DNA of 64,000 nt. It comes from Dokdonia sp. PRO95. GTDB taxonomy: Bacteria > Bacteroidota > Bacteroidia > Flavobacteriales > Flavobacteriaceae. Of the stretch, positions 10,472-62,354 are shown in pieces (positions within the stretch are counted from its first letter, which is position 1; the number at the start of each line of letters is the position of its first letter). A program made the position numbers and the translations under genes. The stretch covers positions 1,888,155 to 1,952,154 of the forward strand of contig NZ_CM001837.1 in NCBI RefSeq assembly GCF_000355805.1. The letters are read 5' to 3'. Below the pieces are notes generated by a model, which worked only from the letters and a program-made list of their open reading frames with translations, was not told where the DNA came from and did not search any database.

Positions 10472-10891
10472 ATTCCAAATAAAGTCATAAAGAAATCTAA
10501 TTAATACGCTTTTAACGAAATTGGCAATGACTTAACAAAAAAGTGATATTTTGATGGTTTGTTTAACATATGTAGTTCTTAATGAATTGTTAAGGCTCAA
10601 TATTGTTTCTTAAAATTTAACAATATGAGATTTGCTAATAAGTTTTGTTTAACATTTCATAATTCTTTTTTAATTGAAGATTGTGAATGAATATTCCTTT
10701 AATTATTGTTTTTCTGTACAGTGCAGCCCCTTTTTTTTGAATGGAATTAATGATCTTTTTCTTCTTAATAGAGTGTGCTTGTCATTTTGATTGAGTGTTA
10801 TTAATTGTTTCTCAGTTAAATCTGTTGCTCTACTTTATCGTTTTCGCGAAAGCAGTGTTATAAGAATTGGATTATTTGGTTTATTGGGTAT
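10472..10891. other. Intergenic stretch before susC pair 2
   Basis: About 420 nt of AT-rich sequence with no credible gene. It contains one copy of the dispersed palindrome at 10839-10854 and presumably the promoter for the second susC-susD unit, which I could not pin to a consensus match. Confidence 0.5.
10839..10854. repeat. Dispersed palindrome, copy 1 (imperfect arms)
   Basis: Exact core TTTCGCGAAA at 10842-10851; the right arm continues as GC, the left arm has one mismatch. Intergenic. See the finding on the palindrome family. Confidence 0.8.
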
Positions 10892-10923
10892 AAAAAAAGC
10901 TCGAAACAATTAAGTTTCGAGCT
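10892..10923 (-). terminator. Intrinsic terminator of susC-susD pair 3
   Basis: A perfect 10-bp stem (10898-10907 with 10914-10923, AGCTCGAAAC/GTTTCGAGCT), 6-nt loop, and a run of A on the left that is the U-tract on the minus strand. It lies 34 nt after the third susD. Confidence 0.9.
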
Positions 10924-10957
10924 CTAATTTTGTTTGATTAACAACTATATACTAATC

Positions 10958-12343
10958 TTAGTAACCAGTATTTTGAGTTAAACCTGATAATTCAACTTCC
11001 CTGGCTGGGATAGGTAGAATTGTTTTGTTAGCTCCAGCAGCAGATTCTGCTTCTTGTGGCATACCAGGTCTTCTTAGACTTAGGTTGTTTCTCAATAAAT
11101 CCATTCTACGTTGCCCTTCAAAGGCAAGCTCTTTACGACGTTCGTTGAGAATGTTATCTAATGTAAGAGATGTTAAAGCAGGAAGGCCAGCACGATCTCT
11201 TAGATCATTAATATCTGTAAGAGCTGACGCTCCAATGGACGATCCATTTCTAAAGTTTGCTTCAGCTCTTGTTAAGTATGCTTCGGTTACACGTAATACA
11301 GGAGCATTATCTGAGTTGTTATTTCCATCAGGGAATTTAGAGGTGAAAAGTCTGTCTTCTCCAGTTGCTGATGTTCCTGTTTGCGTCAATAAGAAACGAG
11401 CATCGTCTGCTTCTTCTTCGTAAGCTGCAATAAGGTTGTCCGAGAAAGGGGCATCACCTCTTCCTGCTGGTGCTGGGTTTGTTAATCCAGAAAAACCTTG
11501 ACCAGAATCTTGACCGTCAGCACCAGTATTAACCAGAGTGAAGAAAAACTCAGAAGATTGTGTGTCATAAAAACCGTAATCACTAGCTAACTCAAATTCA
11601 GGATTAGTTATAGCATCATTGGCTAATGTAGCAGCTTCAGCAAAACGTTCTTGATAAAGGTACAAACGAGCTAATAGCGCTTGTGCAGCTCCTTTAGTTG
11701 CGCGAGAGTTGTCATCATTATTTAATACAGCGATAGCATCTACCAAATCTTGCTCAATCTGCGTGTGTACTTCTCCTAAAGTTGCGCGCTGAGGGAATTC
11801 TATCCCCGAAATAATAGTAGGTTCAGTAACTAAAGGAACAGATAGTGAACTAGCACCGCCTATCTGTAAAGGCTGTCCAAATAGATTCGCAAGCTTAAAA
11901 TAAGTAAGGGCTCTTAAAAATTTTGCTTCTGCAATGAATTGATTTCTAGTTTCATCTGCAAAAGTTGCGTCTTCTACACCTGGTACGAATGCTATTATGT
12001 TATTTGCAGCTCCAATAACTTCATAGTTGTCATCATATATAGAAAAAACTGAGCCATTATCTGATAACGTTGTGTAAGTCCTCACATCATTAAACGTAGG
12101 GAAAGATCCAACAAAATCAATGTTGTCTGCTTGCCATTCACTAAGTAGTGTAGATGTCCCATTAAGAACATCATCCTGTTGAGAAAGGCTGTAAAGTCCG
12201 GTAACTGCTCCGCGTACACCAGCTTCACTTGCAAATACTTGCTCTACTGATTGGCTATCTTCCGGAAGTAATTCTAATTTGCTTTCGCATGCTACTAGTC
12301 CAGTTACGGCTAGTGCTAAAGCTAATTTTTTATATGTTTTCAT
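10958..12343 (-). CDS. SusD/RagB-family nutrient-binding lipoprotein (pair 3)
   Basis: 461 residues with signal and lipobox LVAC (Cys19) followed by ESKLELLPEDSQS, the classical start of the SusD_RagB family. It also has AEAKFLRALTYFKLANLFG (the conserved TPR helix) and, near the C-terminus, NERRKELAFEGQRRMDLLR, the hallmark of canonical SusD proteins. The typical ending in an asparagine-rich YPIP-like motif is reduced to ILPIPAREVELSG. It lies 11 nt after its susC. It is a more canonical SusD than the two to its left. Confidence 0.93.
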   Translation of the reverse strand: MKTYKKLALALAVTGLVACESKLELLPEDSQSVEQVFASEAGVRGAVTGLYSLSQQDDVLNGTSTLLSEWQADNIDFVGSFPTFNDVRTYTTLSDNGSVFSIYDDNYEVIGAANNIIAFVPGVEDATFADETRNQFIAEAKFLRALTYFKLANLFGQPLQIGGASSLSVPLVTEPTIISGIEFPQRATLGEVHTQIEQDLVDAIAVLNNDDNSRATKGAAQALLARLYLYQERFAEAATLANDAITNPEFELASDYGFYDTQSSEFFFTLVNTGADGQDSGQGFSGLTNPAPAGRGDAPFSDNLIAAYEEEADDARFLLTQTGTSATGEDRLFTSKFPDGNNNSDNAPVLRVTEAYLTRAEANFRNGSSIGASALTDINDLRDRAGLPALTSLTLDNILNERRKELAFEGQRRMDLLRNNLSLRRPGMPQEAESAAGANKTILPIPAREVELSGLTQNTGY

Positions 12344-12354
12344 ATGTGTGTTTT

Positions 12355-15336
12355 TTAAAATTGGAATGTAGCTCCAAATAAGAATGATTTAGATTGTGGA
12401 GGTGTAAAGAAAGTTTCTCCTTGACCTAAAGCAGCACTAGTGTCTGTAACTTCAGGGTCGATACCTGTCAAATCATCACCTTTTATAGTTAATAAGTTAG
12501 TTGCTGTAGCATATAGTCTTATGCTTTTGAAAAATTCTAAAGCTCCTAATGCTTCTTGACCTAATGTATATCCAAGAGTTACATTTTTCATTCTCAAGAA
12601 TGATCCATCTCTTAATTGTAGGGTAGATCTTTGGGCGAATGTTCCAAAAGTTGGGCTGTCAAATGCTGGTACGTAAGCATTGTCTCCTGGTTGAGTCCAA
12701 ACGTCAAGTACCGCTGTTCTGTGGTTAAAACTAGCAGAAGCAGCATTATCTGTAAAACGTAAACCATCAATGAAAATGTCATTACCAACACTAAAGTTAG
12801 CTAATATATTTAGATCAAAATTCTTGTATTTGAATGTGTTTGTGATACCTCCTACAAAATCAGGATTTGCATCACCAGCTATTACTCGATCATCAGGAGT
12901 TGGAGAGGTAGTAAGGTTTCCATCTCTGTCTAACCACTCTGCATCACCAGTTTGGCTATTTACCCCATTATATCTCACTAAGAAGAATGTGTTGACAGAT
13001 TCTCCAACGATTGCTCTTTGTGATGCAGATCCAGCAATAAATTCTCTTCCTTGACTATCAACTGCAGCACCAGGTAAAGAGATTACTTCGTTTTCGTTAA
13101 TTCCAACATTAATACTCGTTGTCCAAGAAAAATCTCTTCCTCTAAAGTTGTCTGTGGTCAAGCTAATATCAAAACCTCTATTTTCAATTTCTCCAACGTT
13201 AGCCGGCCTTGTGTTAGGTCCTGAAAATGCAGAAACAGATACTGGTACGAATAATATAAGATCGTCTGTATTCTTTTTGTAATAATCAACTCCCAGTGTA
13301 ATTCTGTTATTTAAGAATGATCCTGAAATTCCAATATCAAATGACTTTGAGCGTTCCCATTTCAAATCTGGGTTTCCAAGTGAACCCGGTGCTAGTCCAG
13401 CGTTGTTATTGTATTGCCCTCCAATACCACCAGCATAAGTGGCAAGAGAAGGGAAGTTACCTATACGATCATTACCATTTGTTCCATAACTACCTCTTAA
13501 TTTAAGATTGTTTATCCAAGAAACGTCCTCTAAAAATTTCTCTTCAGAGAGATTCCAACCTGCACCAATTGCAAAAAAAGTTCCAAAACGGTTGTTAGCT
13601 CCGAATCTTGAAGAGCCATCTCTTCTAAGTGATCCTTCTAGGATGTACTTATCATCGTATGCGTAATTTGCTCTAGCAAAGTAACCTACAAGGCTATTAG
13701 CAGTGGCACTCGATGTAGTTGATGTTTTTTCTGCAGCAGAAGTTACGTTGATATCTGAGTCGCTAACAAATCCTGTTCCAGCTACGAATGATTGTCTAAT
13801 CGTATTTTCTTCGAATGAAGTTCCAACTAAGGCTCCAAAATCGTGCTTTTCTCCAAATGTTTTTTGGAAGTTAAGAGTATTTGTACTTACCCATCTATTA
13901 TCTTGCGCGTAGAAATCTGATGCACTACCACCTGGAGTGTTTATTTCGAAACTTCTTCTTTGCTCTTCAATAAGTACTCTATCAATACCAAATGAGGTTG
14001 TGAAACTTAAGTAGTCAGTAATATCTGCTGTTAAGTTTACATTTCCTGTTGTTCTTGTTTGATCAAGTTTGTTTATATCTAAAGTCTCTATCGCAATAGT
14101 ATTTTGAATAAAACCAGTATTTACGAATGCACCTTCTTCATCTCTTGGTTGTACCCATGGGCGAATAAGATATGAAGATGTAAGAGGAGCTGCTGTGTTA
14201 TTTTCAGCACCTACACGGTCAAATACACTATTTGAAATACCCATGTTAGCCGAAATGTTTAACCAATCTTTAGCTTGATGGTTAATGTTAATTCTTCCAG
14301 CGCGTCTATCTAGAGCGTTTCCAATGATGAAACCATCCTCGTTTTTAAAATTAGTGCTTATGAAAAAGGATGTTTTTTCACTACCTCCGCTTACAGAAGC
14401 GTCAATGTTTTTTGAAATTCCAGAGCGTGTTACTCCGTCAATCCAATCAAAATCTCCTTGTGGTAAATCATCAGTTGTGATATCACCGAAATATCCAGCG
14501 TCTACAGCGTATTGTCTATATTGATCACCACTTAACATGTTAAAGGTGTCAGTAGAATTTGATACAGCAGTACTTAAGTTAAGAGTTACTGTTGTGTCAG
14601 CTCCTTTTTTACCACTTTTAGTAGTGATTAAAACCACACCATTTGACCCTCTAGATCCATAAATTGCTGTTGCTGAGGCGTCTTTTAATACTGAAATATT
14701 TTCAATATCATTTGGGTTGATGTTTGCAAGTGGATTGAGTCCTTGATTTGCACCTTGATTAGATGACAAGTCTGTGTCATTTAGTGGTACGCCATCAACA
14801 ACGAATAATGGTCTTGCACCTGATGATACAGAGGCTACACCACGGATTTTAATTGTTGGCGCTGCTCCTAGTACCCCAGAAGATTGAACTACTTGAACAC
14901 CGGCTGCTTGACCTTGAAGTAGCTCTTGTGGAGAGTTTGCAGGAATATCCTTAAGTGCTTCCGAACCTATGCTAGCAACACTTTGAATACTTTTCTTTTT
15001 CGTTTGTGTTCCAAACGCTACAACTACCACTTCATCAAGTGAATTTCCAGCCTCTAAGCTTACGTTGATTGACGTTTGATTTCCGACTATAATGTCTTGC
15101 TGTTCAAATCCAACATAACTAAATGTTAGTACATCTGTTGATGATGCCTGAATTGAATAATTCCCATCAAAATCGGTTTGAGTTCCCACTGTAGAACCTT
15201 TAATGATTACTGTAGCTCCTGGGAGCGGACCATTTGCTTCGCTAACTGTACCTGTGACAGTCTTTTGCTGAGCAAACAGTGTAGTAGTGCATAATAGCAC
15301 AAGCGCATAAAACGCTTTGAGTGTAACTGTTTTCAT
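12355..15336 (-). CDS. SusC/RagA-family TonB-dependent outer-membrane receptor (pair 3)
   Basis: 993 residues: signal peptide ending FAQ, carboxypeptidase-regulatory-like domain (GPLPGATVIIKG, TDFDGNYSI), TonB-box region (DEVVVVAFGTQTKKK), plug domain with the family signatures RPLFVVDGVPLND and ILKDASATAIYGSRGSNGVVLITTK split over about residues 175-240, and a barrel ending in Phe (GATFQF). Its 5' end does not share the 83-bp module of the other two susC genes. It forms a two-gene unit with the third susD. Confidence 0.95.
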   Translation of the reverse strand: MKTVTLKAFYALVLLCTTTLFAQQKTVTGTVSEANGPLPGATVIIKGSTVGTQTDFDGNYSIQASSTDVLTFSYVGFEQQDIIVGNQTSINVSLEAGNSLDEVVVVAFGTQTKKKSIQSVASIGSEALKDIPANSPQELLQGQAAGVQVVQSSGVLGAAPTIKIRGVASVSSGARPLFVVDGVPLNDTDLSSNQGANQGLNPLANINPNDIENISVLKDASATAIYGSRGSNGVVLITTKSGKKGADTTVTLNLSTAVSNSTDTFNMLSGDQYRQYAVDAGYFGDITTDDLPQGDFDWIDGVTRSGISKNIDASVSGGSEKTSFFISTNFKNEDGFIIGNALDRRAGRININHQAKDWLNISANMGISNSVFDRVGAENNTAAPLTSSYLIRPWVQPRDEEGAFVNTGFIQNTIAIETLDINKLDQTRTTGNVNLTADITDYLSFTTSFGIDRVLIEEQRRSFEINTPGGSASDFYAQDNRWVSTNTLNFQKTFGEKHDFGALVGTSFEENTIRQSFVAGTGFVSDSDINVTSAAEKTSTTSSATANSLVGYFARANYAYDDKYILEGSLRRDGSSRFGANNRFGTFFAIGAGWNLSEEKFLEDVSWINNLKLRGSYGTNGNDRIGNFPSLATYAGGIGGQYNNNAGLAPGSLGNPDLKWERSKSFDIGISGSFLNNRITLGVDYYKKNTDDLILFVPVSVSAFSGPNTRPANVGEIENRGFDISLTTDNFRGRDFSWTTSINVGINENEVISLPGAAVDSQGREFIAGSASQRAIVGESVNTFFLVRYNGVNSQTGDAEWLDRDGNLTTSPTPDDRVIAGDANPDFVGGITNTFKYKNFDLNILANFSVGNDIFIDGLRFTDNAASASFNHRTAVLDVWTQPGDNAYVPAFDSPTFGTFAQRSTLQLRDGSFLRMKNVTLGYTLGQEALGALEFFKSIRLYATATNLLTIKGDDLTGIDPEVTDTSAALGQGETFFTPPQSKSFLFGATFQF

Positions 15337-15534
15337 AAAAAAATTTGTTTATTTCTAGCAAAAATCTACAATATGATTATTTGATTCATAGCTATAAGTG
15401 TTAAAAAAATTAAGATAATTTAACTTTAACTTATCGTTAACTTTTTTTTGTGATAAGCACTTATCAAATTTAACTTTTTAGGTTTTGATTAGAATACTGA
15501 TTTGCATAAATGGCAGCTGATATTTGGGCTTTTT

Positions 15535-17226
15535 TTAAAAATTCACCTCAAGAATTACATGAAGTTTAGTGTCTGAAAACGTAAAGGTCTGATTTTCAAA
15601 TATGCCATTTGCAATGTTTAATTTTAATATACCTGCTTTCGTCTGAATCCCAGTCCCTAAGCCAAAACTGTAGAGTTTTTGTTTTGATTTCTCTATGTTA
15701 TTTTCAAGGTATCCTAGGTCTAAAATTGAGTTTACGTAAATGCTTTTGTTGAGTTTATATCGATATTCCGTATTTAGAGTGTTGTAAAAGTTTGCGAGCA
15801 GACTATTTTCTTCAAATCCTCTCAATGTTAATATTCCGCCAAAGCGGTAGAGTTCATTTGTTAAAAATTGATCTGATATCAAAAATTGCGTGGTGTTTTT
15901 TGCAAATATTGAGTGTTTGTCATTTAATGTAAATTCATTTTCTAGTATTCCAGTAAACGATATTTGTTTGTTAACGTTTTCTGTAACTACTCTATTTCCA
16001 AATGAAGTCCTAATGTGAAGGCGCTTTTTTGTTGGGAAAAATGTATCTGACGATAGTTTTTGGTGGGTAAATGAAGCAGTAAATCTTTTGAAGTTGTAAT
16101 CTTTAAGATTTGTTGTGGTAGTGGTATTCTCAACTAGGTTTTCTGATTGTTCAGATATCATTCCTATTGTGAGTTGGTTTTTTAAGTTTAGTTGATAGAC
16201 TAGGTCTAAAGATTGCTGTGTTGTAGAAAATGTGCTGTCTTTTCTAAAGAGGTTGAGGGATGCCTCAATACCTAACGGAGTCTTGAGAATATAGGGGAGT
16301 TTAGTTTTTAGGTGTAATTGTGATTGGTCCCTTCCGTCTGCTTTGTAATTTAAAATGAAAGTTTCGCCGTAGTTAAAGTTATTCGTAAGCAATAGATCTA
16401 GATATCCATTCAGCTCTATAGAATTGTCTTCTTGGTTTGTGAATCCCAAAAAGCCATCAAATTTGTTCTGGTTTTTGCGTTCTAAATATAGATAGACTGT
16501 TGTGCTATCAGGTGTGAAAAGAACTTGCGGGGCTTTTGTTTGACTTACAAAAGGGATGGATGCGATTTTCAAATTCTGCTCGTTGAGTTTTTCGCGGTTG
16601 AAAAGATCTCCTTCCTTTAATTTGATGCTATGTTTAATGAAACTCTTAGGTATGTTGGTGTAACCTTCAATTTTTATTTTGTCAATGGTTCTGTTTTTCT
16701 TTAACTCAAGAATGAGATTTCCGTTGAGGTGGTGTTGATCTGTTTTGGTGATGTTTTTTATTTGAAAGGTAGCAAAAGGGTATCCATTATTTGAAGCTAT
16801 TGAACTTAATCTTTTAAGGTACGCTTTCGCGAAAGCGGTCTCTATCTTTATGCTGTCTTCAGTGATTTTGTATCCAGTCTGGGTGATATACTGCCGTAGT
16901 ACCTCTTTATGGTCAATTTTTAGATGTAAGAAAGGGTAGTGGGTGTTGAGATGGAAGACAGCTAGATATAATGAGTCGTTTGTAGTAGTTAGGTTATAGG
17001 TGTTGTCTAGGTATCCTAATTCCTTTAACTGGTTGCTTAGAAGCTGAAGTTCTTGAGAAGCAGATGGTTTGTCCTTGAATATAGTTTTGTATTTGAGGTC
17101 GGATAGAATGTTTGATTCTGATGCGAGCTCAGTAATTACTTTTAATTGTATCCCTGCTTCATTTTTTTGCGCAGACATATGCTGTCCAAATAGAGATGCA
17201 ATTATAAATAGGTATATTAATTTCAA
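15535..17226 (-). CDS. Omp85/BamA-family outer-membrane protein
   Basis: 563 residues with an N-terminal signal peptide (ending SAQ). A POTRA-like stretch follows at about 180-260 (IDKIKIEGYTNIPKSFIKHS, then KEGDLFN), and then a beta-barrel of about 300 residues ending in Phe (VILEVNF). The motif LRGF near residue 467 matches the conserved RGF/Y of the Omp85 lid loop. BamA/TamA relatives insert proteins into the outer membrane. This one is shorter than BamA (which has five POTRA domains), so it is a TamA-like or other Omp85 member rather than the housekeeping BamA. It diverges from rpsL. One palindrome copy lies in its coding region. Confidence 0.75.
   Translation of the reverse strand: MKLIYLFIIASLFGQHMSAQKNEAGIQLKVITELASESNILSDLKYKTIFKDKPSASQELQLLSNQLKELGYLDNTYNLTTTNDSLYLAVFHLNTHYPFLHLKIDHKEVLRQYITQTGYKITEDSIKIETAFAKAYLKRLSSIASNNGYPFATFQIKNITKTDQHHLNGNLILELKKNRTIDKIKIEGYTNIPKSFIKHSIKLKEGDLFNREKLNEQNLKIASIPFVSQTKAPQVLFTPDSTTVYLYLERKNQNKFDGFLGFTNQEDNSIELNGYLDLLLTNNFNYGETFILNYKADGRDQSQLHLKTKLPYILKTPLGIEASLNLFRKDSTFSTTQQSLDLVYQLNLKNQLTIGMISEQSENLVENTTTTTNLKDYNFKRFTASFTHQKLSSDTFFPTKKRLHIRTSFGNRVVTENVNKQISFTGILENEFTLNDKHSIFAKNTTQFLISDQFLTNELYRFGGILTLRGFEENSLLANFYNTLNTEYRYKLNKSIYVNSILDLGYLENNIEKSKQKLYSFGLGTGIQTKAGILKLNIANGIFENQTFTFSDTKLHVILEVNF
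16822..16837. repeat. Dispersed palindrome, copy 2 (16-bp perfect, in gene)
   Basis: A perfect 16-bp CGCTTTCGCGAAAGCG inside the Omp85-family gene; on the coding strand it specifies Ala-Phe-Ala-Lys-Ala. Confidence 0.9.
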
Positions 17227-17324
17227 GTAGATTTGTTTGGCTTGTTTTTAAACGGTATTAATGTAGCGAAAGTATGTTAGTTTTTTGGTATTCAGAACTT
17301 TTTCTGAATTTTAATCAAAGTAGG

Positions 17325-17355
17325 TTTGATGTTTAGTAAAATATTCTTACTTTTG
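17325..17355 (+). promoter_or_regulatory. Consensus promoter of the ribosomal superoperon
   Basis: TTTG at 17325-17328, exactly 19 nt, then TACTTTTG at 17348-17355. This is a full match to the Bacteroidota primary-sigma consensus TTTG-N19-TAnnTTTG. Transcription should start near 17360, leaving a leader of about 50 nt before rpsL. Confidence 0.85.
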
Positions 17356-17409
17356 CAAACCCTAAAATTGGGTAGATTAAGAAAATTAACAATTAGGTAG
17401 AAAGAAATT

Positions 17410-20740: not shown

Positions 20741-20762
20741 TTACGCTTTCGCGAAAGCGTAA
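20741..20762. repeat. Dispersed palindrome, copy 3 (22-bp perfect)
   Basis: The core CGCTTTCGCGAAAGCG is extended by TTA/TAA to 22 bp of perfect dyad symmetry, 7 nt after the rpsJ stop. The only other 22-bp copy lies at 56652-56673. Confidence 0.9.
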
Positions 20763-27142: not shown

Positions 27143-27197
27143 GGTAGAAGGTTCTTTTTATGCTTTCGCGAAAGCGAAACTAGAGAAAACCACTACC
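27143..27197 (+). promoter_or_regulatory. Possible RNA structure before rpsH
   Basis: GGTAG-AA-GGTT (27143-27153) can pair with AACC-A-CTACC (27188-27197), closing a stem with a small internal loop around the 14-bp palindrome hairpin at 27162-27175. It ends 14 nt before the rpsH ATG. S8 is an autoregulator in Escherichia coli; a similar role here is only inferred. Confidence 0.4.
27162..27175. repeat. Dispersed palindrome, copy 5 (14-bp perfect)
   Basis: GCTTTCGCGAAAGC in the rpsN-rpsH spacer of the ribosomal operon. Confidence 0.9.
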
Positions 27198-35752: not shown

Positions 35753-35768
35753 CGCTTTCGCGAAAACG
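35753..35768. repeat. Dispersed palindrome, copy 7 (core only symmetric)
   Basis: Core TTTCGCGAAA at 35756-35765 with an intact left arm (GCGC) and a degenerate right arm (ACG). Between the carA terminator and eno. Confidence 0.8.
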
Positions 35769-37193: not shown

Positions 37194-37479
37194 TTTTGAA
37201 TAGTAATGGTTTTTTCAACTTCTTTGTGGCTTATCTTAATACTTTGCATCGTAGAAATATTCTTCAGATAATGATTCTTTAGGATTGTTATAATGATGTC
37301 AAGAATTATTTTGAACAGTTTTGTTGTTTTAATTCATAAAAGTAGGGTAATTCTTACCGAATAAGTGCTTGATATGCGTTTAAAAGCATTAATTTTACAT
37401 TTCCAAACTGTAATCTTTAGAGAGTGATGTTTTGCTTTCGCGAAAGCGGATTTAAAATAAATGTATCTCTTTAAATTTT
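37194..37479. other. AT-rich intergenic stretch after eno
   Basis: No credible gene and no RNA gene that I recognise. It contains one palindrome (37434-37447). The whole eno-gltA gap is 736 nt, the longest in the window. Confidence 0.5.
37434..37447. repeat. Dispersed palindrome, copy 8 (14-bp perfect)
   Basis: GCTTTCGCGAAAGC in the eno-gltA gap, about 33 nt before the structured element. Confidence 0.9.
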
Positions 37480-39263: not shown

Positions 39264-39761
39264 GTGAAAGATTCCAAACACCCATCACCAGTTATCATAG
39301 AGCAACCTGCACTTACTCTTGTAGGTTTACAGGCTACAATGTCTCTGTCTCATAATACTACAATCCAGTTATGGCAAACCTTTGGACCGCTAAGGAAGAC
39401 TATTCTTAACAAGTCTAATGGAGGGAGTTATAGTGTGCAATGTTATGCAGATGATTTTATGACTACTCCATTTACACCAGAAACCAAATTTGTAAAATGG
39501 GCCGCAGTAGCGGTAACAACCGAAAATGATATTCCAAATCAATTAGAAGTATTAAAAATCCCAAAAGGTAAATGGGCAGTTTTTCCATATAAAGGAACCA
39601 CACGTGATTTTGGAGCATTTGCTCAATATATCTACAGTCAGTGGTTAACAAATTCTGGGTATCAATTAGATCATAGACCACATTATGAATTTATGCCAGA
39701 GGACTACTTAGGTCCAAATAATCCACAATCTGAAGAAGAAGTGTGGATACCTATTAAGTAA
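39264..39761 (+). CDS. GyrI-like / AraC effector-binding domain protein
   Basis: 165 residues, a single domain resembling the GyrI-like small-molecule-binding fold (ALTLVGLQATMSL near the start, GKWAVFPYKGTTRDFGAFAQYIYSQWLTNSGYQLDHRPHYEFMPEDY near the end). The family binds hydrophobic ligands, either fused to AraC regulators or alone. No DNA-binding domain here. The start is a GTG inside a degenerate palindrome (CACTTTCGTGAAAG); no ATG gives a complete domain. A palindrome begins directly after the stop. Ligand unknown. Confidence 0.75.
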   Translation: MKDSKHPSPVIIEQPALTLVGLQATMSLSHNTTIQLWQTFGPLRKTILNKSNGGSYSVQCYADDFMTTPFTPETKFVKWAAVAVTTENDIPNQLEVLKIPKGKWAVFPYKGTTRDFGAFAQYIYSQWLTNSGYQLDHRPHYEFMPEDYLGPNNPQSEEEVWIPIK

Positions 39762-39775
39762 GCTTTCGCGAAAGC
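39762..39775. repeat. Dispersed palindrome, copy 9 (14-bp perfect)
   Basis: GCTTTCGCGAAAGC beginning immediately after the TAA of the GyrI-like gene. Confidence 0.9.
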
Positions 39776-44371: not shown

Positions 44372-44387
44372 GCTTTCGCGAAAGCGA
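44372..44387. repeat. Dispersed palindrome, copy 10 (16-bp perfect)
   Basis: CGCTTTCGCGAAAGCG in the divergent 218-nt region between the DUF885 gene and the Ntn hydrolase gene. Confidence 0.9.
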
Positions 44388-45390: not shown

Positions 45391-45424
45391 AAAAACCCGC
45401 TAAGAGATTAGCGGGTTTTGTTTT
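45391..45424. terminator. Bidirectional terminator between convergent genes
   Basis: A perfect 12-bp stem AAAACCCGCTAA (45392-45403) with TTAGCGGGTTTT (45408-45419), loop GAGA. A on the left and T on the right serve both the Ntn hydrolase and the aminotransferase genes. Confidence 0.92.
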
Positions 45425-45438
45425 GCTTTCGCGAAAGC
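45425..45438. repeat. Dispersed palindrome, copy 11 (14-bp perfect)
   Basis: GCTTTCGCGAAAGC, 5 nt from the bidirectional terminator and 14 nt from the aminotransferase stop. Confidence 0.9.
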
Positions 45439-47913: not shown

Positions 47914-47927
47914 CCGCTTTCGCGAAA
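47914..47927. repeat. Dispersed palindrome, copy 12 (core only symmetric)
   Basis: CCGCTTTCGCGAAA in the divergent region between the desaturase gene and rsmG; the right arm has decayed to A. Confidence 0.78.
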
Positions 47928-51357: not shown

Positions 51358-51373
51358 CGCTTTCGCGAAAGCG
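51358..51373. repeat. Dispersed palindrome, copy 13 (16-bp perfect)
   Basis: CGCTTTCGCGAAAGCG, 11 nt after the stop of the barrel-like gene. Confidence 0.9.
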
Positions 51374-51543: not shown

Positions 51544-53526
51544 TTGATATCAAAAGAAACCATAGACAAAGTTTTTGAAACCGCCCGTGTAGAGGAGGTG
51601 ATAGGTGATTTTGTAAATCTTAAAAAATCTGGATCTAATTTTAAAGGCCTCTCTCCATTTTCGGACGAGCGTACGCCTAGTTTTATGGTGAGTCCTGTAA
51701 AACAAATTTGGAAGGATTTTTCTACTGGTAAAGGAGGTTCGGCGGTTTCATTTTTGATGGAGCACGAGCATTTTAGCTATCCAGAAGCGATAAAATACCT
51801 AGCCAAAAAGTACAACATTGAGGTAGAAGAAACAGAGCGCACAGACGAGCAAAAGGAAGCTGCAAATGAGCGTGAGAGTATGTATCTCGTAAGTGAGTAT
51901 GCTCGTGATTACTTCCATAAAACGATGCTCAATTCTGAGCAAGGTAAGGCTATAGGTCTTTCATATTTTAAAGAACGCGGGTTTACTGCAGCGACTATTG
52001 AAAAATTTCAGCTAGGGTATAATCCAGATCAATGGGATGCTTTTACGAGTGAGGCAATACGTCAAGGTTACAAACTAGATTACTTAGAAAAAACCGGACT
52101 CTCTATAGTTAAGGAGGAGAAGCAATTTGACCGTTTTAAAGGGCGTGTGATGTTTCCTATACACTCTATGAGTGGTCGTGTACTAGGTTTTGGAGGTAGA
52201 ATATTAGATAGTAGTAAGAAAGCAGCAAAGTATCTCAACTCGCCAGAGAGTGACATTTACCATAAGAGTAAAGTGCTGTATGGTATTTACTATGCAAAGC
52301 AAGCTATTGCAAAGGAGGATAACTGTTACCTAGTAGAAGGGTATACAGATGTGATACAGATGTTTCAGTCGGGTATTGAGAATGTAGTTTCTTCTTCTGG
52401 AACGGCACTTACTCCAGAGCAAATACGATTAATCAATAGACTTACTAAAAATATAACGGTCCTCTTTGATGGTGATGCTGCTGGACAGCGTGCAGCACTA
52501 CGAGGGATTGATTTAATTCTCGAGCAGGGAATGAATGTTAGGGTTTGCTCTTTTCCTGAGGGTGAAGATCCAGACTCATTTTCGCGAAAGCATAGTAAAG
52601 AAGAAATAGTCGCCTTTTTTGATGAAAATGCAAAAGACTTTATACAGTACAAAGCAAATCTTCTTGTAGAAGAAGCGGCTGGTGATCCTGTAAAAAAAGC
52701 AGATACTGTGCGTGATATGGTAGAGAGTATTTCTAAAATACCTGACGCCATAAAGCAAGAAATTTATGTGCAAGAGTGTGCGCGCATAATGGAGGTCTCT
52801 GAGACTGTGTTGTATAATACGCTTGCTCAAATACTTAAGAAAGATAAAAAGGAAACTGTAAAACAAAATAGGGGTAATCAACCTCAATCACCACCACCAG
52901 AATATATGTCTGTGGTGCCAGATGAGATGCCTAATGCTGTTGAAAAAGTTAATGTGTTATATGAGCTTGAGCGCAAGCTTATAGAGTCATTGCTTTTATA
53001 TGGTCAGGTGGAAGAAGATTTTGAAGATCTGGTTCTCAAAGAGAATGAGGATGGTAGTCTTGAGCTGGAGCCTATAGTGCATAAAGCTAGAGTTTTTGAG
53101 AAAATCTATTTGGATCTGCAAGATGATGAGGTGGAGTTTACAAATGACCTCTTTAAGGTGCTCTATGGTAAAATAGTGGAGCAGATGCATCTAGATACTA
53201 ACTTCCAAGTTCAGAATTTTATCAATGAACTCGCTCCAGAAGAAGCTAGTGAGATTTCAAATATTATTCTCAATGATGAGAAGTATGAACTTCATCGCTG
53301 GGATACTCGGGAGGTTTATGTGCGCAAGAAAGATACTTCTGTAGGTCAGTTTGTAACAGAGACAGTATTGAGTCTCAGAAAATATCTTATCACAGAAAAG
53401 ATAAAAGAGTTAATGAATCAAACCAAGGATAGTGTTGACAACAAAGAAATCATTAAAGATATTCTAGATTATCAATCTCTCAATACATTACTGGGTAATA
53501 AACTGGGAAGAGTATTATCTGTCTAA
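51544..53526 (+). CDS. dnaG: DNA primase, zinc-ligand-free variant
   Basis: 660 residues from a TTG start (MISKETIDKVFETARVEEVIGDFV); no ATG fits without losing this conserved N-terminus. It makes RNA primers for replication with DnaB. The CHC2-like domain has GLSPFSDERTPSF and KDFSTGKGG: Ser37, Ser40, Asp58 and Thr61 stand where Cys, His, Cys, Cys bind zinc in the usual enzyme. The TOPRIM catalytic core is intact (YLVEGYTDVIQMFQ near 263, FDGDAAGQRAALRG near 308). A C-terminal helicase-binding part follows. The stop overlaps that of the convergent regulator. Confidence 0.93.
   Translation: MISKETIDKVFETARVEEVIGDFVNLKKSGSNFKGLSPFSDERTPSFMVSPVKQIWKDFSTGKGGSAVSFLMEHEHFSYPEAIKYLAKKYNIEVEETERTDEQKEAANERESMYLVSEYARDYFHKTMLNSEQGKAIGLSYFKERGFTAATIEKFQLGYNPDQWDAFTSEAIRQGYKLDYLEKTGLSIVKEEKQFDRFKGRVMFPIHSMSGRVLGFGGRILDSSKKAAKYLNSPESDIYHKSKVLYGIYYAKQAIAKEDNCYLVEGYTDVIQMFQSGIENVVSSSGTALTPEQIRLINRLTKNITVLFDGDAAGQRAALRGIDLILEQGMNVRVCSFPEGEDPDSFSRKHSKEEIVAFFDENAKDFIQYKANLLVEEAAGDPVKKADTVRDMVESISKIPDAIKQEIYVQECARIMEVSETVLYNTLAQILKKDKKETVKQNRGNQPQSPPPEYMSVVPDEMPNAVEKVNVLYELERKLIESLLLYGQVEEDFEDLVLKENEDGSLELEPIVHKARVFEKIYLDLQDDEVEFTNDLFKVLYGKIVEQMHLDTNFQVQNFINELAPEEASEISNIILNDEKYELHRWDTREVYVRKKDTSVGQFVTETVLSLRKYLITEKIKELMNQTKDSVDNKEIIKDILDYQSLNTLLGNKLGRVLSV
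52580..52589. repeat. Dispersed palindrome, copy 14 (core, in dnaG)
   Basis: TTTCGCGAAA, coding for part of Ser-Phe-Ser-Arg-Lys in DnaG. Arms beyond the core: none on the left, GC on the right. Confidence 0.7.
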
Positions 53527-55135: not shown

Positions 55136-55206
55136 TATGCTTAAATGTATGAAATATACGCTTTAAGAAAAAGACTCGTTTTCTTGAATATAAAGATACA
55201 AACTCT

Positions 55207-56160: not shown

Positions 56161-56163
56161 GGA

Positions 56164-56502: not shown

Positions 56503-56507
56503 AAATT

Positions 56508-56891
56508 ATGGGTTTGCTATTTATATATAATGCAAACTCTGGTGCCTTAAATGGTCTTTTAGATACAGCTCATAAGCTGGTGAGTCCAGAGACTTACCAG
56601 TGTGAGCTTTGTGATCTTACCCACGGAGCTTTTACAGAAAAAAAGGAATGGTTACGCTTTCGCGAAAGCGTAAAAACTCCAATGCAGTTTTTGCATAAAG
56701 ATGAGTTCTTAAAGCGTTACAAGTCTAAGTGGTTGCCGCAGTATGATTTTCCTGTGGTTCTAGCTGTGGTCGATAGTGGTCTAGAAGTAGCTATCTCAAA
56801 AGAGCGATTTACTCAGTTGCAAACGCCTCAAGCTTTGATAAAAGAAGTGCGAGAGGTGTTGCGCCTATTTAATTTTCAAGATTATTGTTAA
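56508..56891 (+). CDS. Unknown small protein downstream of gldC
   Basis: 127 residues, not recognised. It is probably cytoplasmic: no signal peptide and no membrane helix. It starts [25 protein letters not shown] and has a CELC pair (Cys34, Cys37) that could bind metal or be redox-active. A 22-bp perfect palindrome lies in frame in the coding region (Leu-Arg-Phe-Arg-Glu-Ser-Val). It is the third gene of the gldB-gldC unit, and its last 23 nt overlap the 3' end of the convergent engB gene. Confidence 0.7.
56652..56673. repeat. Dispersed palindrome, copy 15 (22-bp perfect, in gene)
   Basis: The same 22-bp perfect dyad as at 20741-20762, here inside the open frame of the unknown gene without disrupting it. 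Confidence 0.9.
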
Positions 56892-57474: not shown

Positions 57475-57478
57475 ATCG

Positions 57479-57486
57479 CAAAAATA
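57479..57486 (-). promoter_or_regulatory. Possible -7 element of engB
   Basis: On the minus strand this reads TATTTTTG, fitting TAnnTTTG, but no -33 TTTG is present at 19 nt. If used, transcription would start about at the engB ATG. Confidence 0.4.
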
Positions 57487-57595
57487 GTAATGTAATCGTT
57501 TAATAAAGAATATGCAGCACATTATGTGCTCAAAAGTCTAAGAGATGACTGTGAGGGTAATTCTTAGTGTGTATTATTAATGTGGGTAAGAGGTA

Positions 57596-58360
57596 TTAAA
57601 ATTCTCTTTCTTTAAGCCACTTAAGGAGTATGTCGTTAAACTCGTTGGGCTTTTCCATCATTGCTGCGTGACCACACTCATCTATCCAGAAAAGATCTGA
57701 GTCTGGAAGGAGTTTATTAAAATCCTCAGCAACCTCTGGCGGAGTGACTCCATCTTGACGTCCCCAGATAATACAAGTAGGTGTATTCATTTCTGGAAGG
57801 TCTTGCGCCATGTTGTGACGTATAGCGCTTTTTGCAATCGCAAGTGTTTTGAGTAATTTGTTACGATCGTTTACAGTGTCGTACACCTCGTCTACAATTT
57901 CCTTAGTAGCACACTCTGGGTTGTAAAAAACACCTTGAGCCTTCTGTTTGATGTATTCATAATCACCGCGCTTAGGGTAGCTTTCTCCCATTGCACTTTC
58001 GTAAAGTCCAGAGCTTCCTGTGATTACAAGAGCTTTTACTTTTTCTGGAGACATTTTTGTGTGATAAAGCCCCACATGACCACCCATAGAATTACCTAGA
58101 AGAATTACTTCTTTGTAGCCCTTCATGGTGATAAATTCATCAAGGTACTTTGCAAATGATTTTACACCTGTTTTAACAAGCGGCATTGTGTACACTGGAA
58201 GTTCAGGTATAACCACCTTATACCCATTTTCCGAAAAATGAGAAGTTACTGCATCAAAATTACTCAAGCCTCCCATTAAACCATGTAAAATGATAATTGG
58301 TGTTCCTTCGCCTTTTTCTAGATAAGTAAATTTCCCTTCGGTTATTAAGTCGTGTTTCAT
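57596..58360 (-). CDS. Alpha/beta-fold hydrolase
   Basis: 254 residues of the alpha/beta-hydrolase fold: oxyanion region LHGLMGG (25-31), nucleophile elbow GNSMGG (Ser91), probable acid Asp203 in WGRQDGVTPP and His231 in ECGHAAMMEKP, so the triad is complete. No signal peptide, hence cytoplasmic. It resembles meta-cleavage-product hydrolases and general esterases; the substrate is unknown. A -7-like TATATTTG lies at 58386-58393 on the minus strand. Probably a single gene. Confidence 0.85.
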   Translation of the reverse strand: MKHDLITEGKFTYLEKGEGTPIIILHGLMGGLSNFDAVTSHFSENGYKVVIPELPVYTMPLVKTGVKSFAKYLDEFITMKGYKEVILLGNSMGGHVGLYHTKMSPEKVKALVITGSSGLYESAMGESYPKRGDYEYIKQKAQGVFYNPECATKEIVDEVYDTVNDRNKLLKTLAIAKSAIRHNMAQDLPEMNTPTCIIWGRQDGVTPPEVAEDFNKLLPDSDLFWIDECGHAAMMEKPNEFNDILLKWLKEREF

Positions 58361-58385
58361 AAAAGTGGTTAGTAATCAATAGAAG

Positions 58386-58393
58386 CAAATATA
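58386..58393 (-). promoter_or_regulatory. Likely -7 element of the hydrolase gene
   Basis: TATATTTG on the minus strand, 25 nt upstream of the hydrolase ATG; no TTTG is seen at -33. Confidence 0.4.
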
Positions 58394-58485
58394 GTTATTT
58401 CGCTTTTGATTAGTCGTTCTTTTTTGACTTTGAATTTATGAGGGTTTATCTGTATTTGTTAGAAGTATAACACATTGTTTTTGTG

Positions 58486-58501
58486 CGCTTTCGCGAAAGC
58501 G
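58486..58501. repeat. Dispersed palindrome, copy 16 (16-bp perfect)
   Basis: CGCTTTCGCGAAAGCG in the hydrolase-mraZ divergent gap, about 70 nt before the MraZ repeats. Confidence 0.9.
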
Positions 58502-58570
58502 AAATTTTAAAATCATAGTTCGTTTCTACAAGAAATGTAAAAAAAACATTCATCAACATATTGTTAACAA

Positions 58571-58627
58571 GTGGCGGGAGGTGGTACAACTTATCAACAA
58601 AGTGGTAGAATGTGGTAAAAAGTGGTA
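58571..58627 (+). promoter_or_regulatory. Probable MraZ operator (GTGGTA repeats)
   Basis: GTGG occurs at 58571, 58581, 58602, 58612 and 58622, four of the five as GTGGTA. Spacings are 10, 21, 10 and 10, so all lie on one face of the helix with one repeat skipped. MraZ in other bacteria binds direct TGG-type repeats about 10 bp apart upstream of its own gene and represses the dcw cluster, so autoregulation is likely. Confidence 0.8.
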
Positions 58628-58637
58628 ATATTTGCGC

Positions 58638-58645
58638 TATATTTG
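58638..58645 (+). promoter_or_regulatory. -7 element of the mraZ/dcw promoter
   Basis: TATATTTG matches TAnnTTTG. The expected -33 position (58615-58618) falls inside the repeat array instead of reading TTTG, so MraZ binding would block polymerase directly. The start would be about 25 nt before mraZ. Confidence 0.65.
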
Positions 58646-58675
58646 AGTTAATACATAAAAACTAACCTATCTCGA

Positions 58676-59146
58676 GTGATTAATCTCATTGGAACATATG
58701 AATGTAAAATAGACGCTAAGGGTCGACTCATGTTGCCTCAAGCGTTTAAAAAGCAGCTGGCGCCTGTCCTTCAGGATGGTTTTGTGCTTAAGCGTGCTGT
58801 GTTTCAAAAATGTCTTGAGTTGTATCCTATTGCAGAGTGGAATGTGCTGAGTGCAAAAGTGAATAAGCTTAATCGTTTTAATAAGAAGAATGATGAGTTT
58901 ATACGTCGTTTCAATGCAGGTGTTAAGCCAGTGGAGGTTGATGGAACGGGTAGAGTTTTAGTATCAAAAGATTTAGGAAGTTTTGCAAAACTTGAGAAGT
59001 CGATTGTGGTTAATGCTGCTTTCAACATACTTGAGATTTGGGATAAAGATTTATATGAAAAAGCCATTGACGAGGCAGCGGTAGATTTTGCAGATCTTGC
59101 TGAGGAGGTGATGGGAGATAGCGATATACCAGATGGATTATCATAA
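58676..59146 (+). CDS. mraZ: Transcriptional regulator MraZ
   Basis: 156 residues from a GTG start (MINLIGTYECKIDAKGRLMLPQAFKKQL). Two SpoVT/AbrB-like DNA-binding repeats: about 5-55 and 75-125 (FNAGVKPVEVDGTGRVLVSKDLG). MraZ forms rings that bind repeats upstream of its gene and controls the division/cell-wall cluster. It is the first gene of the dcw operon, as usual, and overlaps rsmH by 14 nt. Confidence 0.96.
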   Translation: MINLIGTYECKIDAKGRLMLPQAFKKQLAPVLQDGFVLKRAVFQKCLELYPIAEWNVLSAKVNKLNRFNKKNDEFIRRFNAGVKPVEVDGTGRVLVSKDLGSFAKLEKSIVVNAAFNILEIWDKDLYEKAIDEAAVDFADLAEEVMGDSDIPDGLS

Positions 59147-60029
59147 CCCAGTATTATTAAAAGAGACGGTAGGTGGTCTCAATATCAAGCCAGATGGCAT
59201 CTATGTAGATGTCACTTTTGGTGGTGGTGGTCATTCTCGTGAAATCATGAGCAGGTTAGGTCCTGAGGGAAAGCTATATGGTTTTGATCAAGATGTAGAT
59301 GCTCAACAAAATGTTATTGAGGATGAGCGATTCACGCTTATCCCAGAAAACTTTAGATACATCAAGCGATTTATGCGCTTTCATGGTGTGAAAAAAGTAG
59401 ATGGCATCCTTGGTGATTTTGGCGTGAGTTCACATCAATTTGATGTTGCAGAGCGTGGTTTTTCTACTCGTTTTGAGAGTGATCTCGATATGAGAATGAA
59501 TCAGAATGATACGTTATCTGCTTATAATGTCATTAATGATTATGCAGAGGAAGATTTAAGACAAGTGTTCTGGCAGTATGGAGAGCTTCGTAATGCTCCT
59601 AAGCTGGCTAGTACTATAGTGCATGAGCGCAATAGTCAGTTTATAAAGACTAGTGAGCATCTTAAAAAGGTGTTAGCTCCTTTTTTGCCTAAGCATAGAG
59701 AGCATAAAATACTTGCTCAGATTTATCAAGCAATACGCATAGAGGTTAATCAAGAGATAGAGGTTCTTAAAGAATTTTTACTTCAGACAGAGCAGCTCCT
59801 TGAGCCGGGTGGTAGAATAAGTCTTATAAGTTATCACTCACTTGAAGACCGTCTAGTGAAGAGATATATAAGAAATGGAATGTTTGAGGGAGAGCCAGAA
59901 AAAGATATGTATGGCAATTTTGAAGTTCCTTTTAAGAAAGTAGGGAAGCTCATTATTCCAGACAGCAATGAGATAAAGTCAAACAACAGAGCGCGTAGTG
60001 CAAAGTTGAGAATCGCTGAAAAACTTTAA
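59133..60029 (+). CDS. rsmH: 16S rRNA (cytosine1402-N4)-methyltransferase
   Basis: 298 residues (old name mraW). It methylates N4 of C1402 in the 30S P-site. The SAM site VDVTFGGGGHSREIMSRL, ILGDFGVSSHQFDVAERGFS and ISYHSLEDRLVKRYI are family hallmarks. It starts 14 nt before the end of mraZ, so translation is probably coupled, and ftsL follows after 8 nt. Confidence 0.97.
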   Translation: MDYHNPVLLKETVGGLNIKPDGIYVDVTFGGGGHSREIMSRLGPEGKLYGFDQDVDAQQNVIEDERFTLIPENFRYIKRFMRFHGVKKVDGILGDFGVSSHQFDVAERGFSTRFESDLDMRMNQNDTLSAYNVINDYAEEDLRQVFWQYGELRNAPKLASTIVHERNSQFIKTSEHLKKVLAPFLPKHREHKILAQIYQAIRIEVNQEIEVLKEFLLQTEQLLEPGGRISLISYHSLEDRLVKRYIRNGMFEGEPEKDMYGNFEVPFKKVGKLIIPDSNEIKSNNRARSAKLRIAEKL

Positions 60030-60037
60030 GAGGCACA

Positions 60038-60358
60038 GTGAGCAAGTTTAATAATATACTCAAGGGTAAATTTCTAGTAGATGAGGATGCCTTTAAAAAC
60101 TGGAGGATGATCATCTTTATTTCTGCACTCGCATTAATCATGATTGCTAGTTCGCACAGAGCAGATGAGAAGGTCTATGAGATTGCAAGGTTAAAAGAAG
60201 AAGTAGCTGAGCTGAGAAGTGAAGCGGTAGACAGCCGAGTAAATCTCTGGAAGTTAAAAACAAATAGTAGTGTGGCAAAAGCATTAGAGTCAAGGGGAAT
60301 TAAACCATCTAATGTGCCGCCAAAAAAGATAAAAGTAACAACACAAGAAACAGATTAA
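60038..60358 (+). CDS. ftsL: FtsL-like cell division protein
   Basis: 106 residues from a GTG start. A cytoplasmic N-terminus, one transmembrane helix (about 24-41, MIIFISALALIMIASSH) and a short coiled coil (VYEIARLKEEVAELRSEAVDSRVNLWKLK). Sequence is poorly conserved in FtsL, so the call rests on topology and position between rsmH and the division transpeptidase. It links FtsB/FtsQ and activates FtsWI. Confidence 0.82.
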   Translation: MSKFNNILKGKFLVDEDAFKNWRMIIFISALALIMIASSHRADEKVYEIARLKEEVAELRSEAVDSRVNLWKLKTNSSVAKALESRGIKPSNVPPKKIKVTTQETD

Positions 60359-60362
60359 TAAA

Positions 60363-62354
60363 GTGGCAACCACAGAGAAGCACATATTAAACCGCCTTTA
60401 TTTCGTCGCTGGATGTATGTTCCTCCTAGCGATCATAATCGCATATAAGCTTATTGCGATTCAGGTGTTTCAGGGTGCAAAGTATCGTGAGCTTGCTACT
60501 ACTAGCACAGAGAAGATGGTAACCATCCCAGCTACTCGCGGTAACCTTTATGCAGAAGATGGTAGTCTTCTCGCGACCTCACAAATCAAGTACGATATAC
60601 GATGGGATGCAGTAGCACCATCTAATGAAAATTTTAACGAGAATATAGTTGGTCTTTCTAAGGGGCTCTCTCAAGTGCTCGGTAAGCCTCAATCATATTA
60701 TGAAAATAGATTGCGCAAAGCGCGTAGTACAAAAAATCGCTACTTGTTTATAGCCCGTAAACTAGGTTATGCAGAGTATGTGAAGATTAAATCACTTCCA
60801 TTATTCAATAAAGGCCAATTTAGAGGTGGTATCATTATCGAGGAGCATACAGAGCGTGAGCATCCGCTTGAGAAAATGGCAGAACGCACCGTGGGTTATG
60901 AGCGTCAGGATGATAGTGGTTATTATACACGAGTAGGTCTTGAGGGTGCATACGGATATTACTTACGTGGTAAAGAAGGACGCCGTCTCAAGCAAAAGAT
61001 TGCAAAGGGAGAATGGAAACCTCTTGGGGTGGGTAATGTTATTGAACCACGAGATGGTTATGATGTAATCTCAACCATAGATGTAAATATTCAAGACGTT
61101 GCACACAACGCCTTGCTTGCTAGTCTTGAAAAATACCAAGCAGACCACGGTTGTGTGGTTGTTATGGAGACTAAGACGGGCGAGATTAAAGCAATATCAA
61201 ATTTAGGTCGTACTAAGGAAGGGAAATATTACGAGCGTCTCAATTATGCAGTAGGAGAAGCACATGAGCCGGGTTCTACATTTAAGTTAATGTCTATGGT
61301 TGCTGCGCTTGAAGATAAGGTGATTGACTCAAGTACGGTGTTTGATACAGAAAATGGTCGTGTGAAATTCTATGACCGAACGGCGATAGATTCTAAAAGA
61401 GGTGGTTATGGTAAAATAACAGCTGCAAAGGCATTTGAGCTGAGTAGTAATACCGCTTTCGCGAAAATGATAAACGATAACTATGCCTCAGATCCAGAAA
61501 AGTTTGTAAAACGACTTTTTAATATGGGGCTCAACGATCAATTAGGACTTGAAATTAAAGGAGAAGGAAAACCGAACTTTCCTTACCCAGGCGATAAAAA
61601 CTGGTATGGAACTACCTTGCCTTGGATGGCTTTTGGATATGGAATAGAGTTAACGCCATTACAAACGCTCACATTTTATAATGCTATTGCAAATGATGGT
61701 GAGATGGTAAAACCTCGTTTTATTAAAGAGGTGAAGGAGTGGGATCAAACCATTGAGTCTTTTGATAAAGAGGTGATTAATTCTCGTATCGCTTCTCAAG
61801 CTACTATAAACGTAGTAAAGGAGATGATGAAGAAAACAGTAGAGCGAGGTACAGCGAGAAATATTTATAGTGAAGAATTTTCAATGGCGGGTAAGACGGG
61901 TACTTGTCAGACTGAGTATTGGATAGAAGCAGGAAGATATATTTCATCATTTGCGGGTTATTTTCCAGCAGATGAGCCTAAGTATTCTTGTATTGTAGTG
62001 GTTAATAAACCTAAAAAATCTATAGGGTTTTATGGAAATGTTGTTGCAGCTCCGGTGTTTAAGGAAATTGCACAGAAAATTTATACAGATACTCCTGTAA
62101 TTGATGAGGTGAATTTACCCACGGAGAATTCAAAGATTATTGAGGGGGATTATCAGAGGTATTATGCAAATGTCAATAAAGCACATAGCAAGATGCCTAA
62201 TGTAAAAGGAATGCCTGGAATGGATGCGATTGCATTGCTAGAAAACCTAGGCTTAAAAGTAAATTTTCGCGGAAGCGGGAAAGTGAAAAGTCAGTCTGTA
62301 AAAGCTGGTGATAAAATAGAGAAGAATAAAACAATCACGCTACAATTATCTTGA
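60363..62354 (+). CDS. ftsI: Division-specific peptidoglycan transpeptidase (FtsI/PBP) with PASTA domain
   Basis: 663 residues from a GTG start: one N-terminal transmembrane helix (about 11-31), a PBP dimerisation domain, and the transpeptidase domain with EPGSTFKL (SxxK, Ser near 304), SSN near 361 and KTGT near 510. A C-terminal PASTA domain (MPNVKGMPGMDAIALLENLG to the end) is present, unlike in enteric FtsI. It cross-links septal peptidoglycan. One palindrome core lies in the codons of SSNTAFAK. The stop overlaps murE. Confidence 0.95.
   Translation: MATTEKHILNRLYFVAGCMFLLAIIIAYKLIAIQVFQGAKYRELATTSTEKMVTIPATRGNLYAEDGSLLATSQIKYDIRWDAVAPSNENFNENIVGLSKGLSQVLGKPQSYYENRLRKARSTKNRYLFIARKLGYAEYVKIKSLPLFNKGQFRGGIIIEEHTEREHPLEKMAERTVGYERQDDSGYYTRVGLEGAYGYYLRGKEGRRLKQKIAKGEWKPLGVGNVIEPRDGYDVISTIDVNIQDVAHNALLASLEKYQADHGCVVVMETKTGEIKAISNLGRTKEGKYYERLNYAVGEAHEPGSTFKLMSMVAALEDKVIDSSTVFDTENGRVKFYDRTAIDSKRGGYGKITAAKAFELSSNTAFAKMINDNYASDPEKFVKRLFNMGLNDQLGLEIKGEGKPNFPYPGDKNWYGTTLPWMAFGYGIELTPLQTLTFYNAIANDGEMVKPRFIKEVKEWDQTIESFDKEVINSRIASQATINVVKEMMKKTVERGTARNIYSEEFSMAGKTGTCQTEYWIEAGRYISSFAGYFPADEPKYSCIVVVNKPKKSIGFYGNVVAAPVFKEIAQKIYTDTPVIDEVNLPTENSKIIEGDYQRYYANVNKAHSKMPNVKGMPGMDAIALLENLGLKVNFRGSGKVKSQSVKAGDKIEKNKTITLQLS
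61455..61466. repeat. Dispersed palindrome, copy 17 (core, in ftsI)
   Basis: CGCTTTCGCGAAA with core at 61457-61466, coding for Ala-Phe-Ala-Lys right after the catalytic SSN motif. Confidence 0.75.

Follow-up and report, generated by a model that had tools for sequence, protein, structure and literature searches.

Why should a single perfect palindrome be scattered along a bacterial chromosome? The question is raised by a 64,000-nucleotide stretch of Dokdonia sp. PRO95 (contig NZ_CM001837.1, positions 1,888,155–1,952,154; hereafter the window), in which 17 exact copies of the 10-mer TTTCGCGAAA had been noted from the letters alone and ascribed either to a genome-wide binding site of a chromosome-organising, repair or methylation protein or to a self-maintaining motif resembling HIP1 of cyanobacteria. 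All 17 copies are present, with one coordinate corrected from 44375 to 44374. Dinucleotide shuffles of the window give 0.10 expected copies and three at most, in agreement with the earlier estimate of less than one. The motif is probably best regarded as the recognition site of a dimeric DNA-binding protein that may organise the chromosome, a reading to which we assign a probability of about 0.45.

A genome-wide palindrome family

Perfect symmetry extends over 10 bp in six window copies, 14 bp in four, 16 bp in five, and 22 bp in two. The original prediction that most copies reach 14–16 bp and two reach 22 bp therefore holds for the 11 copies that are palindromic over at least 14 bp, and has to be qualified for the six that stop at 10 bp. 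In the complete genome of the strain (G000, a single contig of 3,305,093 bases), TTTCGCGAAA occurs 1018 times, about 310 copies per Mb, versus 10 for a reversed control, and the 16-mer CGCTTTCGCGAAAGCG occurs 577 times versus none. A 464-kb sample of this genome, composed of the window and 20 stretches of 20 kb (L031–L050), contains 142 copies, whereas an order-3 Markov model fitted to the sequence with the motif masked predicts 0.19. The family is thus neither a product of sequence composition nor the trace of one insertion element, as the aligned copies have in common the core and a bias in composition up to about 25 bp, but no flanking sequence.

One-mismatch variants of the core number 28 in the sample, 3.0-fold above the 9.2 expected from the Markov model. 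Outside the full motif, the subwords of the core are near background on both strands (TTCGCG, 49 versus 50.7 expected; TTCGCGAA, 2 versus 3.0; TTTCGC, 81 versus 132), with TCGCGA mildly enriched (82 versus 58.6). A literature search gave no report of this motif, most subscription journals being outside its reach. No other iterated 10-mer of this kind, with at least eight copies on both strands and at least three different letters, was found in 40 kb from each of ten other genera. Mild excesses of palindromic 8-mers were observed in other genera, such as AAGATCTT in G131 (20 versus 3.6).

Core, arms and symmetry

Alignment of the 142 sampled copies revealed a symmetric core with an arm on each side at 12–25 bp from the centre, about 50 bp in total, and the half-site consensus read outward from the centre is CGAAAGCGTAA. 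On the outward strand of the arms, G is strongly depleted and A and C are raised, in genic and intergenic copies alike, and 111 of the 284 half-sites have a 14-nt arm without any G, versus 15 expected. The bias falls near 25 bp, beyond which a weak tail extends to about 100 bp. Four control palindromes with 9–24 copies each showed no such arms. Two other words stand out in the same sample on both strands: ATCGCGAT is in excess without G-poor arms (26 versus 7.5 expected), and the palindrome CTATATAG is strongly depleted (2 versus 20.9), perhaps from restriction avoidance.

The left and right halves of the site do not covary. When right halves were shuffled among sites, 23 of the 24 tests of left-right matching in the variable core columns and the arms fell within |z| 1.6, and the remaining one (z −3.2 at shift −1) represents fewer matches than chance. 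The absence of covariation argues against a hairpin, and symmetry of this kind is best interpreted as a pair of similar half-sites on double-stranded DNA. There is good support for a site of about 50 bp that a protein would read in double-stranded form.

Genomic placement and spacing

A home-made gene caller recovered 406 genes, covering 89.5% of the 464-kb sample. The 142 copies are divided into 65 in genes and 77 outside, which corresponds to 0.157 and 1.57 copies per kb, a tenfold difference; four of the 77, located at stretch ends, were left unassigned in one analysis. Between tandem genes, the copies lie at a median of 45 bp from the upstream stop versus 108 bp from the downstream start. 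The genic copies use all three frames (40, 14, and 11 copies), the commonest reading of the translated consensus being Ala-Phe-Ala-Lys-Ala, and copies are present even inside the ribosomal operon.

The sites are spaced more evenly than chance allows. The coefficient of variation (CV) of 121 spacings is 0.54, versus 1.02 ± 0.08 (lowest 0.76) in 3000 simulations that kept the genic and intergenic densities, and only 10 gaps are shorter than 1 kb versus 41 expected. The first 100 sites of the chromosome have a CV of 0.67, below all 5000 uniform simulations. The 20 stretches of 20 kb around the chromosome contain four to nine sites each (Fano factor 0.32, P 0.002), and the counts reveal no obvious trend from region to region. 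Similar CVs were obtained in the two other carrier genera described below, 0.56 in G161 (n = 34) and 0.50 in genus g10 (n = 30), and the 240 kb sampled from each contain no gap shorter than 1 kb. Genus g10 has strong arms; those of G161 are weaker, and its sampled stretches have a G+C content of 46%. Among the rare close pairs, three are 126–136 bp apart (G000:C1:155249/155381 and 324155/324291; L033:8521/8647). The first 10.8 kb of the window, in which one of two SusCD pairs was confirmed by Pfam, had been noted as free of copies and perhaps more recently acquired. The remark carries little weight, as five of the first 99 gaps of the chromosome exceed 8 kb and one exceeds 10.8 kb.

Conservation and sites in the window

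In a 40-kb alignment of five genomes, 13 sites of the PRO95 genome are kept in 12, 12, 9, and 7 cases in the related species G301, G303, G299, and G304, respectively. Background 10-mers are kept at 0.37, 0.34, 0.43, and 0.19 between genes and at 0.39, 0.38, 0.40, and 0.19 in genes, a comparison in which small alignment shifts were allowed for the sites, not for the background, and in which the number of sites is small. Many sites are thus retained in position from one species to another. Two of them, before the L3 gene and within the L22 gene, are found at the same place in G161, a member of another genus, possibly by convergent gain.

The individual sites are given here with the number of the five aligned genomes, the PRO95 genome included, that keep them. 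The site at 10842–10851 is intergenic (10447–10958), and that at 16825–16834, a 16-bp palindrome, lies within a POTRA-domain gene (called at 15535–17178, minus strand). The next four lie between the S10 and L3 genes (20747–20756, a 22-bp palindrome; four of five genomes, and G161), within the L22 gene (23614–23623; five of five, and G161), between the S14 and S8 genes (27164–27173; five of five), and between the genes of RNA polymerase alpha and L17 (33954–33963; five of five). Intergenic sites follow at 35756–35765 and 37436–37445 (three of five each), at 39764–39773 (two of five), directly past an open reading frame (ORF) ending at 39761, and at 44374–44383 (five of five). The site at 45427–45436 (four of five) lies between convergent genes and adjoins a separate terminator-like hairpin (45392–45419); those at 47918–47927 (four of five) and 51361–51370 (five of five) are intergenic. 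A copy at 52580–52589 is within the DnaG primase gene (four of five). The 22-bp palindrome at 56658–56667 (four of five) is either intergenic or in a doubtful 127-aa ORF (56508–56891) that has no Pfam match. The last two are an intergenic 16-bp palindrome at 58489–58498 and a copy within a penicillin-binding protein gene at 61457–61466. The gene caller places 13 of the 17 copies outside genes, and with the doubt over 56658 the number is 12 or 13, which agrees with the 12 claimed before.

Phylogenetic range

Among 299 genomes of the family, the 10-mer occurs in hundreds in only five: G000 (1018) and G175 (1107) of the same genus as the window, G009 (595) and G207 (700) of genus g10, and G161 (559) of genus g162. 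None of the other 294 has more than 34 copies. When 397 family genomes of 235 genera are considered, high counts of the 16-mer are again confined to these three genera (G000, 577; G175, 630; G009, 495; G207, 579; G780, 448; G161, 153), and the other 391 have at most 13. Within the window's own genus, all 18 genomes searched, G000 included, carry the 16-mer 138–711 times. In a phylum sample of 392 genomes, of which G000 is the sole known carrier, no other genome has more than 11 copies of the 12-mer.

A tree built from seven conserved proteins, whose rows were obtained by tblastn and from which 14 of 96 rows, all outgroups, had been dropped beforehand, placed g10 beside Nonlabens dokdonensis (L082) and G161 beside Leeuwenhoekiella (L052), and joined the own genus to Aquimarina (support 93); the three carrier genera were thus not recovered together. 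In approximately unbiased (AU) tests, one clade of the own genus, G161 and Leeuwenhoekiella was neither rejected (p 0.34) nor demonstrated, and the same applies to that clade enlarged by g10 and Nonlabens (p 0.16). No copy is found in the 20.6 kb of the Leeuwenhoekiella stretch L052.

Phages and mobile islands

Forty-one stretches of IMG/VR contigs carry the 16-mer. On the 34 stretches with a G+C content below 48.5% there are 47 distinct sites, and the arms of these are G-poor (G 0.10). Seven stretches of higher G+C content have one site each without G-poor arms (G 0.32), as expected of chance matches. Gene content was looked at on a minority of the IMG/VR stretches; proteins on some of low G+C content match phage portal, major head, tape measure, terminase, and baseplate hub families, and L156 has an integrase match. 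Phage contigs of about 36–48% G+C (L151–L191, e.g., L164, L171, L181, and L188) bear the motif with host-like arms, several of them repeatedly, and the motif may possibly serve as a marker of host range. Two related lytic Nonlabens phages of about 35.7 kb each, P12024S and P12024L, lack both the motif and TCGCGA.

Genera that lack the genome-wide family have few 16-mers, and some of these form clusters with similar spacings in different genera. Ten such stretches (L246–L255, from G069, G262, G074, G086, and G243) hold related islands, those of G086 and G243 being up to 99.9% alike over 14 kb, and encode RND efflux, outer-membrane efflux, and heavy-metal P-type ATPase genes. Their 24 distinct sites have G-poor arms (G 0.11), and these heavy-metal islands look like visitors from motif-bearing hosts. 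Of the island copies, 21 of 26 are within called genes, some spacings are alike (933, about 2446–2481, and 3460 bp), and a few sites (three in L250) resemble another local repeat.

Discussion

If the palindrome is a protein recognition site, one sequence-specific protein would bind each copy on double-stranded DNA as a symmetric dimer, reading the core CGCTTTCGCGAAAGCG and also sensing about 14 bp on each side that are G-poor on the outward strand. The protein would act on DNA long resident in carrier cells, and selection, rather than molecular drive, may keep about one site per 3–5 kb, fairly evenly, where genes tolerate them. Its likeliest role would be in chromosome organisation, namely the loading, anchoring or bounding of a structural or topological machine. 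This reading draws on the enrichment, the G-poor arms, the lack of left-right matching, the even spacing, the conservation, and the same arms on phages and islands, and the proposal of a genome-wide protein site in the original prediction is borne out to that extent. Sites such as parS, Noc sites and matS are architectural. They and the gyrase motif (PMC6379681) resemble the palindrome as symmetric sites for a DNA-acting protein with a footprint of tens of bp or more, but the palindrome differs from them in its roughly 1000 evenly spread copies.

Several observations weigh against a chromosome-organising protein. Profile searches covered 15 of the 22 known carriers (12 of 18 in the own genus, two of three in g10, and G161) and 35 non-carriers chosen from 294, and the binding protein was not found among the families tested (PF00437, HTH_ParB, Y1_Tnp, C5 methyltransferase, ComEC, and RecC), none of which tracks the motif. 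An extra ParB/Noc-type paralogue, a natural candidate, was rejected because 13 of the 15 carriers, like 29 of the 35 non-carriers, have a single HTH_ParB match. A gyrase-type motif was rejected as well, the 10–11 bp GC periodicity being absent in the flanks (p 0.93; positions 27–86 from the centre, 171 sites). Half-sites without the outer GCG have poorer arms (mean 1.43 G versus 0.89), which gives no indication that weak cores are compensated by strong arms, and retention in G299 (9 of 13 versus 0.43) exceeds the background only modestly. Moreover, even spacing, occurrence in all frames and the excess of one-off variants are also reported for uptake sequences (PMC1939737), and the evenness observed here tips the balance only slightly.

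In the main alternative, the motif would instead be a signal for DNA uptake or exchange, site-bearing DNA being preferentially imported or recombined and spread by molecular drive like the DNA uptake sequences and uptake signal sequences (DUS/USS) of Neisseriaceae and Pasteurellaceae, a possibility that we consider less likely. Its density, use of all frames, intergenic excess, even spacing, flank preference, and presence on mobile-looking DNA would all fit. DUS/USS likewise have a core of about 10 bp, many copies, a weaker flank preference, genic copies with an intergenic excess, and even spacing (PMC1939737). The palindrome also shows the genome-wide excess of a fixed core, flanked by a weaker preference, that is one criterion for DUS/USS. 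The Haemophilus influenzae uptake sequence has one-off variants at 3.0-fold over a base-composition expectation (Table 1 of PMC1939737). As this is the fold obtained here with another expectation model, the near-miss excess does not separate the hypotheses, and near misses are not unusually rare. Riemerella columbina, a relative reported to be competent, prefers its own DNA (PMC7965970). The type IV pilus/type II secretion ATPase PF00437 is found somewhat more often in carriers (6 of 15) than among non-carriers (6 of 35), but it is below cut-off in nine of the 15 carriers, G000 included; within the own genus it is patchy, being above cut-off in G300, G304, G306, G310, and G314 and not in the other seven tested. 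A ComEC-type domain is present in all 50 genomes, carriers or not, and does not discriminate. A long perfect palindrome with symmetric arms is unlike the described uptake sequences, which are stated to be "not palindromes" in PMC1939737. Their even spacing had once been taken to point to a function in replication, repair or compaction; the author of that account considers it not even enough for compaction (PMC1939737).

A Chi-like palindrome that would restrain a recombination nuclease, such as AddAB, approaching from either side, with arms for RecA loading, appears improbable. RecA prefers GT-rich DNA, and the arms are suitably oriented, the 5' side of the palindrome being richer in G and T on each strand; the even spacing and the sites on phage contigs would also fit. 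The copy number is near the 1008 of Escherichia coli Chi, but Chi as printed in PMC1939737 is a non-palindromic 8-mer. The palindrome has no orientation, and a site read as a single strand needs no strict symmetry. The Chi of RecBCD was rejected because RecC (PF04257) is found in none of the 50 genomes. A motif maintained like highly iterated palindrome 1 (HIP1, GCGATCGC) of cyanobacteria, through a DNA methyltransferase and biased repair, is more improbable still. Both are highly iterated palindromes that occur genome-wide in certain lineages only, TCGCGA is mildly enriched outside the motif, and G000 has two C5 methyltransferase matches, which are adjacent (G000:C1:2994546–2996633) and each reported with a 700-aa open frame. 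However, the C5 domain is missing in 9 of the 15 carriers (present in 6, and in 19 of 35 non-carriers), so an m5C methyltransferase is not a partner that all carriers need. TTCGCG and TTCGCGAA remain at background outside the motif, and the G-poor arms and the tenfold intergenic bias find no counterpart in HIP1. For m5C, the methylation part of the original prediction is therefore not upheld. The density also differs, high-frequency cyanobacterial sequences reaching about 500–2500 per Mb (PMC4390886). The least probable explanation, already contradicted, is an RNA or DNA hairpin acting as a terminator or as a repetitive extragenic palindromic (REP) element moved by a RAYT transposase. Like REP elements, the motif is a short palindrome, commonest between genes and in hundreds of copies; the tandem-gene copies lie closer to the upstream stop, and one copy (56658) is terminator-like in a scan of the 44–64 kb part of the window. 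In contrast, covariation is absent, no T tract follows the palindrome in the aligned copies, and 65 of the 142 sampled copies are in genes. Copies between the S10/L3, S14/S8, and RNA polymerase alpha/L17 genes make a terminator unlikely, as strong terminators would be harmful there. An insertion or REP/RAYT element was rejected because flanks are not shared and Y1_Tnp is above cut-off in only 4 of the 15 carriers (16 of 35 non-carriers), with no match in G000.

Few kinds of genome-wide iterated motif are understood, namely uptake signals, Chi, HIP1, and REP, and the palindrome shares features with several of them but fits none by the tests run. Somewhat more tentatively than the dimer site itself, we suggest that it may belong to a chromosome-organising system not described before, in which a dimeric protein would act on palindromes of about 50 bp every 3–5 kb in three perhaps non-sister genera, and in which resident phages and metal-efflux islands would have evolved these sites too. 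Should the bound protein organise the chromosome, the sites would form an evenly spaced, sequence-defined scaffold that is visible from sequence alone and open to chromatin immunoprecipitation sequencing (ChIP-seq) and Hi-C. If the motif instead serves as a signal for uptake or exchange, it would be, to our knowledge, the first palindromic one of this kind, and 9 of the 15 tested carriers would be expected to use a machine that lacks the usual pilus ATPase. In both cases, the motif may label phages and mobile islands according to the hosts in which they have lived.

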